From: Salipiger bermudensis HTCC2601
GTDB taxonomy: Bacteria; Pseudomonadota; Alphaproteobacteria; Rhodobacterales; Rhodobacteraceae
DNA: 64,000 nucleotides
Assembly: GCF_000153725.1 (NCBI RefSeq)
Contig: NZ_DS022277.1
Span: 95,342-159,341, forward strand
Reading direction: 5' to 3'
Of this stretch, positions 21,704 through 22,892 are shown piece by piece (position 1 is the first letter of the stretch; every line of letters starts with the position of its first letter). The notes below the pieces were generated by a model. The model saw nothing but the letters and a program-made list of their open reading frames with translations. It was not told the origin of the DNA and searched no databases. Made by a program: the position numbers and the translations under genes.

Positions 21704-22705
21704 CTACAACTCGAACAAGCCCAAGGCGCTCACGACGTCACGCTTGGTCGCCTCGGTGCGCTCGCGTGCCCTTTGCGTCCCTTCCCTGATCACATCGAAG
21801 ACGTATCCACGGTCTTGGACGAGCTCTGCCCTGCGCGCGCGAATGGGCGCAATCAGGTCCTGAAGGATCGCCTCCAGTCGCGCCTTGAGTTTGCCATCGC
21901 CAAGCCCGCCCCGCTGATACTGCGTCTTGAGCTCGGCAAGCGTGTCCTGGTTCGGGTCGAAGGCGTCGAGATAGGTGAAGACGACATTGCCCTCGACGCG
22001 GCCCGGGTCTTCGACACGCAGGTGGTTGGGATCGGTGAACATCGCCTTGACCGCGTTGCGAATCTCGTCGGGCGACGCGGACAGCGCAATCGCGTTGCCA
22101 CCGGATTTCGACATTTTGGCCTTGCCATCGATACCGGGCAAGCGGCCCCCCTTGGGGATGACCGCCCTGGCCTCGGGCAGCACGGCGCAGCCCGCGGTCG
22201 TATTGATCCGCCGCACGATCTCGTTGGTTTGCTCGATCAGCGGGGCCTGATCCTCTCCGACCGGCACAACCGTCGCCTTGAAGGCCGTGATGTCCGCCGC
22301 CTGTGCCGCAGGATAGCACAGGAAGCCGGCGGGAGTATCCCGCCCGAACCCGCGCGCTCGGATTTCGTCCTTGATCGTCGGGTTCCGTTCAAGCCGCGCG
22401 ACAGTGACGAAGTTCAGGTAAAGCATCGAAAGCTCGGCCAGCGCCGGCAGATGCGATTGCAGACAGATCGTCGTGCGCGCGGGATCAATGCCCACCGCCA
22501 GGTAATCCAGGGCGACCTCAATTACGCTTCGCCGCACCTTCTCTGGATCGTGGGCGTTGTCCGTGAGGGCCTGGGTATCCGCCAGCAGCAGGAATTGGTC
22601 ATGGCTGTCCTGATACCGCAGCCGATTTGCCAGCGAGCCGGCATAATGCCCGATGTGAAGCGGCCCCGTGGTGCGGTCGCCAGTGAGAATGGTTGGTCTG
22701 TTCAT
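21704..22705 (-). CDS. trpS: Tryptophanyl-tRNA synthetase, attenuator-controlled
   Basis: A 333-residue class I synthetase charging tRNA-Trp. The HIGH box is in GPLHIGHYAGSLANRL near residue 15, GEDQAPLIEQTNEIVRR near 150 and KMSKS in GKAKMSKSGGNAIALS near 195. Its opening, ILTGDRTTGPLHIGHYAGS, is of the branch unlike E. coli TrpS (FSGAQPSGELTIGNYMG). Start 22705 has AGGGG 6 nt upstream. The 5' leader carries a Trp-Trp leader peptide and a three-stem attenuator, so the gene should be expressed when charged tRNA-Trp is scarce. It may be an auxiliary, inducible TrpRS; whether another trpS exists elsewhere cannot be seen here. Confidence 0.93.
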   Translation of the reverse strand: MNRPTILTGDRTTGPLHIGHYAGSLANRLRYQDSHDQFLLLADTQALTDNAHDPEKVRRSVIEVALDYLAVGIDPARTTICLQSHLPALAELSMLYLNFVTVARLERNPTIKDEIRARGFGRDTPAGFLCYPAAQAADITAFKATVVPVGEDQAPLIEQTNEIVRRINTTAGCAVLPEARAVIPKGGRLPGIDGKAKMSKSGGNAIALSASPDEIRNAVKAMFTDPNHLRVEDPGRVEGNVVFTYLDAFDPNQDTLAELKTQYQRGGLGDGKLKARLEAILQDLIAPIRARRAELVQDRGYVFDVIREGTQRARERTEATKRDVVSALGLFEL

Positions 22706-22750
22706 TTGCGTCCCCTCATGAAACGAGAGACCGCGCATCGGGGAGCTTGG

Positions 22751-22819
22751 AAAACAAAAGGCCGCCCGTGCGGCGGCCTCGGAAATTGATTGGTCATCCG
22801 GCCACCTTGTCAGGAGGCC
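22751..22819 (-). promoter_or_regulatory. Transcription attenuator of trpS
   Basis: Four RNA segments can be read on the minus strand. Segment 1 GGCCTCC (22819-22813) overlaps the end of the leader peptide. Segment 2 is GGTGGCC (22806-22800). Segment 3 is GGCCGCC (22778-22772). Segment 4 is GGCGGCC (22766-22760), followed by TTTTGTTTT (22759-22751). Segments 1 and 2 pair with one U-U mismatch; 2 and 3 pair over 7 bp with one G-U; 3 and 4 pair perfectly over 7 bp with a 5-nt loop and form the terminator. This is the classic mutually exclusive pause/antiterminator/terminator arrangement. A ribosome stalled at the Trp codons would cover segment 1 and free 2 to pair with 3. Confidence 0.9.
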
Positions 22820-22857
22820 AGCCACCAGGTCATTGCGATGATCATCGTGTTTTCCAT
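22810..22857 (-). CDS. Trp leader peptide of trpS
   Basis: Fifteen codons, MENTMIIAMTWWLAS, then TGA. Two consecutive TGG codons (22827-22822) sit just before segment 1 of the attenuator. It has no convincing Shine-Dalgarno sequence. The predicted transcription start coincides with its ATG, so it is probably a leaderless message, as known for rhizobial trpL. It serves as a sensor of charged tRNA-Trp. Confidence 0.88.
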   Translation of the reverse strand: MENTMIIAMTWWLAS

Positions 22858-22863
22858 GCAGGA

Positions 22864-22892
22864 TCCGTAGCGCCGAGGAAGGCGCGCGTCAA
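22864..22892 (-). promoter_or_regulatory. Predicted promoter of the trpS leader transcript
   Basis: On the minus strand TTGACG (22892-22887) is followed after 17 bases by TACGGA (22869-22864). The expected start, 7 bases downstream, falls on the A of the leader-peptide ATG at 22857. The -35 element is close to consensus; the -10 is weak. Confidence 0.6.

Follow-up and report, generated by a model that had tools for sequence, protein, structure and literature searches.

The question raised by this locus is how a spare tryptophanyl-tRNA synthetase (TrpRS) gene is switched on, and whether the short ORF with two adjacent Trp codons in front of it serves as the sensor. The window, which here means the whole 64,000-nt stretch of DNA that was analysed, lies on an 814-kb contig of a genome of 5.48 Mb in 6 contigs. 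On its minus strand is trpS2, flanked on either side by genes read as zinc-type alcohol dehydrogenases. No dedicated tRNA was found near trpS2 within the window. The parts of the locus are as follows, in the direction of reading.

22887..22892, minus strand: predicted -35 box TTGACG, 17 nt from the -10 box
22864..22869, minus strand: predicted -10 box TACGGA, with 6 nt between it and the leader ATG
22810..22857, minus strand: leader ORF MENTMIIAMTWWLAS, 15 codons, with the stop codon counted in the coordinates; the WW peptide is kept in orthologues
22822..22827, minus strand: tandem Trp codons TGGTGG, the putative sensor codons
22816..22824, minus strand: segment 1, TGGCTGGCC, expected to lie under a ribosome that stalls at WW; its pairing with segment 2 covaries
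22798..22806, minus strand: segment 2, GGTGGCCGG, pairing partner of segment 1 or 3
22772..22780, minus strand: segment 3, GAGGCCGCC, left arm of the terminator and pairing partner of segment 2, 4 or 5
22758..22766, minus strand: segment 4, right arm of the terminator
22751..22759, minus strand: U tract TTTTGTTTT, whose first two T overlap the last stem pairs
22727..22739, minus strand: segment 5, GATGCGCGGTCTC, complementary to segment 3 plus the terminator loop (duplex -17.7 kcal/mol)
22711..22717, minus strand: segment 6, the Shine-Dalgarno (SD) sequence GAGGGGA of trpS2; the surrounding region can pair with segment 5 and its neighbours
21704..22705, minus strand: trpS2, auxiliary TrpRS of type II, 333 aa (P0001), with its ATG at 22705 and its end at 21704

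The initial annotation had described a 15-codon leader peptide with tandem TGG codons, segments capable of 1:2, 2:3, and 3:4 pairing, and a 7-bp terminator stem with a U tract. The leader ORF was found at 22857-22810 with TGG TGG at 22827-22822, and the complementarity for all three pairings is present. The terminator was also found, with its U tract, but its stem-loop (22780-22758, minus strand) has 9 pairs, 7 of them G-C, instead of 7 bp; it runs into the U tract upstream of trpS2. The four-segment anatomy holds for segments 1 to 4 and extends further, to segments 5 and 6. The leader of the window (151 nt) has a folding z score of -4.62, and none of 200 shuffled sequences folded equally well. 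The Rfam Trp_leader model (RF00513) matches with 27.9 bits (E 0.002); its gathering score is 41, a value that none of the 6 other leader loci scanned reached either. Because this threshold is not reached, the leader is said here to work like the Trp_leader family and is not filed in it. A model of the leader has a single strong match in its own genome (E 8.8e-35). The next match (E 0.46) was rejected as a second copy; it resembles a plain terminator between two genes and has no WW ORF.

Conservation of the leader was examined at the levels of family, class, and phylum. Close orthologues of trpS2 (E <= 1e-60) are present in 12 of 295 family genomes, including that of the window, and the WW leader precedes all 11 orthologues with their 5' end present, a count that takes in the window itself. 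The class draw yielded matches at E <= 1e-70 in 33 of 385 genomes. The larger alphaproteobacterial genomes outside the family (3.7-6.0 Mb) have the WW leader at five of six loci and a single W at the sixth, while small genomes (0.6-2.1 Mb) have a WW ORF at only one of 22 located loci. In the even phylum draw, which was made without selection for leaders, 27 of 398 genomes had a match; an ATG-started WW leader was found at 17 of the 21 newly fetched loci, against 6 of 1050 shuffled upstream regions. Upstream of canonical trpS, one WW leader was seen among 26 located cases (29 examined). A scan of named genomes covered the best 80 of at least 586 relatives. All loci fetched before the even draw gave a WW ORF in 76 of 135 with a located start. 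The leader of the window is considered to be more than chance because the WW leader is conserved both in the family orthologues and in the even phylum draw. The ORF, the terminator, and this conservation together bear out what the initial annotation saw ahead of trpS, and they support its reading as a Trp-codon attenuator of a TrpRS gene.

The arrangement is not restricted to one family. The initial annotation had considered trpS attenuation for a Rhodobacteraceae-type genome; the arrangement is present there, but the combination of WW leader and TrpRS-II was found in alpha-, beta-, and gamma-Proteobacteria. Plasmids also carry it: 90 plasmid records match, and 12 of the 17 that were read have a WW leader. 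These are from Roseibium, A. rubi, R. ruizarguesonis, Methylocystis, Variovorax, Burkholderia, two Klebsiella, E. coli, Salmonella, Vibrio, and Salinivibrio. The plasmid loci read from R. leguminosarum, Acinetobacter, Lactobacillus, and Staphylococcus have no WW leader, and the Acetobacter locus has a single-W ORF. Marine indolmycin producers had been offered as a possible reason for such a gene, and this reason is not sufficient, since soil, enteric, and plasmid copies share the arrangement.

Several neighbourhoods of trpS2 were recorded in passing. On the Klebsiella plasmid pB18083_2 (L055, 2523-4993), trpS2 is directly behind the tryptophan permease gene mtr, and this pair, together with a diguanylate cyclase gene, is flanked by two IS1 transposase genes. 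Several further Klebsiella plasmids, among them those of K. quasipneumoniae, carry matches that do not start until residue 79; a transposase is annotated for two of these. On R. leguminosarum pRL23b4 (L049, 1330-7076), a TrpRS-II gene without WW leader is directly preceded by coproporphyrinogen-oxidase-family and FAD oxidoreductase genes, and the three lie between two IS6 transposase genes. TrpRS-II relatives are on 24 Staphylococcus plasmid records; one of them, S. epidermidis plasmid p1457 (L060), was read and shows neither a WW leader nor an above-threshold T-box. In Pseudoalteromonas luteoviolacea IPB1 (L137, 2501-5345), trpS2 with a WW leader adjoins violacein genes, one identified as VioE by Pfam and two further by reading. 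Violacein is made from tryptophan. Near trpS2 of Silicibacter lacuscaerulensis (L062, 4781-4828), a Guanidine-II riboswitch scores above the Rfam threshold.

The enzyme itself differs from the canonical TrpRS. The genome has one other TrpRS, a canonical trpS located elsewhere (counted with TIGR00233), so that the second trpS that the initial annotation had proposed to look for exists; a TyrRS, identified by reading, is also present. TrpS2 shares 28% identity with its own canonical TrpRS. The closest solved structure is Deinococcus radiodurans TrpRS II (PDB 2a4m, 1yi8) with 378 bits, the next TrpRS scoring 216, and TrpS2 is nearer in sequence to Deinococcus TrpRS-II than to canonical TrpRS. TrpS2 has Gln (ADTQALT) where the canonical TrpRS of the same genome has His (VDMHAIT), and Gln is at this position in all 135 located relatives. 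This His is an indolmycin-resistance position. Because Gln replaces it, indolmycin tolerance of TrpS2 is plausible. Reviews describe indolmycin resistance of second TrpRSs (PMC9437257; PMC6804068).

The presence of the leader follows the number of trpS genes. When trpS genes were counted with TIGR00233 in 114 genomes, with duplicates counted once (L014 and L069 are the same genome), the WW leader was found in 57 of the 67 genomes that have at least two trpS genes and in 2 of the 47 that have one. Among the 10 multi-trpS genomes without WW leader, five have a single-W ORF (L020, L091, L094, L102, and L125) and five have neither (L076, L097, L108, L131, and L149). The two single-trpS genomes with WW leader are L111, a metagenome assembly that may be incomplete, and L044, a small alphaproteobacterial genome in which the WW ORF MINISSYFSFLVWWRR precedes the only trpS without a clear terminator; this ORF is suggested to be a chance occurrence or a remnant. 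The 45 single-trpS genomes without WW leader include Acinetobacter, Cupriavidus, some Undibacterium, small genomes, and others. Fisher's test of leader against gene number gave 1.9e-19, a value that is overstated because the genomes are related and were sampled via the enzyme. On a tree of 113 rows, 7 independent pairs were obtained; this tree treats L107 and L118 as second copies although their trpS genes had not been counted, and it includes one genome twice, as L014 and L069. The pairs divide into a mean of 3.7 in the expected direction versus 0.1 against it; the median p of 0.125 is not significant. Two Bacillota, Clostridium sp. K13 and Terrisporobacter, have a T-box before the same enzyme type (L131, 2174-2432, and L139, 1190-1435), and in one of them the gene of this enzyme is the only trpS.

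The transcript probably starts at or next to the leader ATG, so that the leader peptide would be leaderless. This start is predicted because the -10 box sits 6 nt before the ATG. Among 47 representative leaders, which are under 72% identical to each other, 37 have a best -35/-10 pair that stops 5-8 nt ahead of the leader ATG, compared with 10.5% of shuffles. An SD-like sequence precedes the leader ATG in 7 of 74 leaders. A stricter promoter scan found no promoter ahead of the leader in the window. Leaderless leader peptides have been described for S. meliloti trpL (PMC7298713) and S. lividans trpL2 (PMC8079986).

From these parts and their conservation we infer a ribosome-mediated attenuator that very likely makes the spare TrpRS inducible by Trp-tRNA shortage. 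Transcription would begin at the leader ATG or next to it, with immediate translation of the leader ORF. When Trp-tRNA is plentiful, the ribosome would reach the stop codon, 1:2 would form, 3:4 would terminate transcription, and trpS2 would be off. When the housekeeping TrpRS fails, by Trp starvation or by an inhibitor such as indolmycin, the ribosome would stall on TGG TGG. The stalled ribosome would cover segment 1, which lets 2:3 form in place of the terminator, and trpS2 would be transcribed.

The pairings 1:2, 2:3, and 3:4 are mutually exclusive by complementarity. Swaps of segments between species show covariation of 1:2 (p=9.8e-8). The swap test for 3:4 gave p=2.5e-9 and is biased; because its hairpin was chosen by complementarity, the case for 3:4 rests on alignment counts, in which 3:4 is 99.2% paired in 17 aligned leaders. 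A joint 1:2 plus 3:4 covariation score was reached by one of 500 shuffles. The swap test for 2:3 detected no covariation (p=0.27) because the 2:3 core is nearly invariant, and 2:3 is thus backed by complementarity and folding. In folds that stop short of segment 4, masking the 18 nt that start at WW lifts the expected number of 2:3 pairs from 2.12 to 7.70, with a gain above one pair in 72 of 74 leaders. The mean gain of the representatives is 5.14 versus 2.44 for shuffles, and a gain of at least 3 is seen in 40 of 47 representatives versus 38% of shuffles. In full-length folds with segment 1 masked (63 leaders, 11 of the 74 being left out for a misplaced hairpin or start), 3:4 is still more stable than 2:3. 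Later folds and swaps used placements corrected by rule and, at 7 loci, by hand. The switch would therefore have to be kinetic, with the stall acting in time. A clear U tract is present in 25 of the 47 representatives and absent from 22.

Segment 5 lies between the terminator and the trpS2 start and is complementary to the left arm and loop of the terminator. Its pairing with segment 3 covaries (swaps p=7.4e-9) and beats shuffles at p<=0.05 in 35 of 47 representatives. Pairing with the loop only is weak (swaps p=6.8e-3; p<=0.05 against shuffles in 7 of 47), and 3:5 is therefore argued from the arm and the loop together. Four groups of leaders were aligned for 3:5. In beta-Proteobacteria 3:5 is 91.5% paired; both sides have changed in 11 cells, a number that none of 500 shuffles attained, and pairs so changed stand at 45 of 500 shuffles. 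The rhizobial type is 93.9% paired, with both-side-changed cells at 6 and pairs at 19 of 500 shuffles. In enterobacteria, pairing is 93.8% and compensatory changes are weak (101 of 500 shuffles). Pairing is lowest, at 74.7%, in the Rhodobacterales-type group, that of the window, where compensatory changes are also weak (51 of 500). In the order Rhodobacterales type, enterobacteria, beta-Proteobacteria, and rhizobial type, these alignments took 17 of 20, 9 of 10, 9 of 10, and 10 of 12 grouped leaders; L012, L014, L065, L126, L105, L019, and L021 had been left out beforehand. Pairing of segment 5 with the SD region covaries as well (5:6, swaps p=5.2e-8). Mean openness of the SD sequence over 74 leaders is 0.33 with segment 5 free, 0.45 with segment 5 held by segment 3, and 0.38 in shuffles. 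For L009 and L116 the stretch is too short to give meaningful p values.

These pairings allow a tentative extension, possible though rather doubtful, in which six segments would control transcription and then translation in one cascade. A stall on WW would let segment 2 hold segment 3 just long enough against the terminator 3:4. The emerging segment 5 would then displace 2 from 3, and 3:5 would keep 5 off the SD region. Without a stall, 3:4 would terminate transcription, and leaky read-through would be silenced by 5:6. The terminator arm may thus double as an anti-sequestor of the start site, and lineages without U tract would keep the translational half only.

It is unlikely that translation is the main target, with segment 5 holding the SD region unless segment 3 takes it away and the terminator being secondary. 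The covariation of both 3:5 and 5:6 fits such a design, as do the 22 representatives without a clear U tract, in which SD openness is 0.29 with segment 5 free and 0.52 with it held by segment 3. However, the window has a good U tract, its own SD is just as open as that of shuffles (0.31 in both), and the 5:6 pairing exceeds shuffles at p<=0.05 in just 13 of the 47 representatives. In addition, blocking equally many other bases has nearly the same opening effect on the SD (0.46 and 0.40 versus 0.52 and 0.43; p=0.03), so that much of the opening by 3:5 is explained by the blocking of any bases. The opposite role of 3:5 appears slightly less probable again: when Trp returns, 1:2 would free segment 3 on read-through mRNA, and the 3:5 stem would block initiation. 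The 3:5 stem is long and stable, and this sign matches classical translational attenuation, but SD openness is on average higher, not lower, when segment 5 is held by segment 3. Segment 5 may also play no part at all.

Action in trans, which the initial annotation had raised, is improbable. A predicted leaderless leader ORF and a released small RNA resemble rnTrpL and peTrpL of Sinorhizobium meliloti (PMC7298713), and pairing of segments 3 and 5 between two molecules is conceivable; the covariation is accounted for by pairing inside one molecule. A role of TrpS2 in the nitration of tryptophan, the function proposed for Deinococcus TrpRS II together with nitric oxide synthase, is very improbable. 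Deinococcus TrpRS II is the closest solved structure, but a model search for nitric oxide synthase found no match in this genome; the same model matched 2 of 14 controls, Bacillus and Deinobacterium. The least credible account is a chance ORF before an ordinary terminator. The Rfam score under the gathering threshold would suit it, but conservation refutes it, and the covariation of 1:2 also stands against it. The ribosome-mediated attenuator is the preferred reading.

Comparable systems are known. The attenuator of the auxiliary TrpRS in S. coelicolor was reportedly tested by Vecchione and Sello. Streptomyces auxiliary TrpRS genes are likewise behind a short leader peptide with one or more Trp codons and hairpins, with a leaderless start (predicted here), and in both the gene is a second trpS in addition to a canonical one. 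A Trp attenuator was predicted for S. avermitilis trpS2 (PMC1262725), and S. lividans trpL2-trpS is listed from RNA-seq as a single-W leaderless attenuator with the peptide MMTRTCTQLWRAA (PMC8079986). The Proteobacterial leaders belong to another phylum and mostly have two Trp codons, and the likeness is drawn from the leader, not from the enzyme type. About half of the representatives here have a U tract, whereas none is reported for S. lividans trpL2; segment 5 is conserved before the start site here and has no mention in the accessible texts on Streptomyces leaders.

The leaders of E. coli trpL, S. meliloti trpL, and RF00513 share the same 1:2, 2:3, and 3:4 logic with Trp codons, and S. meliloti trpL shares the leaderless start predicted here. 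To our knowledge, E. coli trpL has no segments 5 and 6. Unlike the trp operon leaders, the leader here would control a synthetase instead of biosynthesis, has segments 5 and 6, and scores under the RF00513 gathering threshold. The T-box of Bacillota trpS also senses Trp-tRNA shortage and precedes a TrpRS of the same type; T-boxes bind uncharged tRNA directly and have no leader peptide. Deinococcus radiodurans TrpRS II shares the Gln in place of the canonical His, and its nitric oxide synthase partner is without a match here. No report of a Trp leader on Proteobacterial trpS was recognised among the papers listed by open-access searches, subscription papers being outside this coverage. Trp-attenuated auxiliary TrpRS is already known from Streptomyces, and the present case is read as a known mechanism that occurs in a widespread and apparently under-described place.

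The results suggest a rule: TrpRS-II as a second copy is mostly behind a sensor of the shortage of its own substrate, and the sensor is mostly absent where TrpRS-II is the only TrpRS. The enzyme is patchily distributed and often plasmid-borne, and the gene-number rule makes the purpose of spare synthetases testable. Salmonella trpS2 was suggested to be able to substitute for trpS (PMC3487940), and an attenuated trpS2 bears on the tolerance of trpS to transposons in Salmonella. A tolC mutant shows a joint decrease of trpS2, mtr, and the trp genes (PMC12506092). If segment 5, which is conserved, has a function, it would be a step beyond the textbook attenuator. The leader may also be seen as a natural reporter for failure or inhibition of TrpRS.
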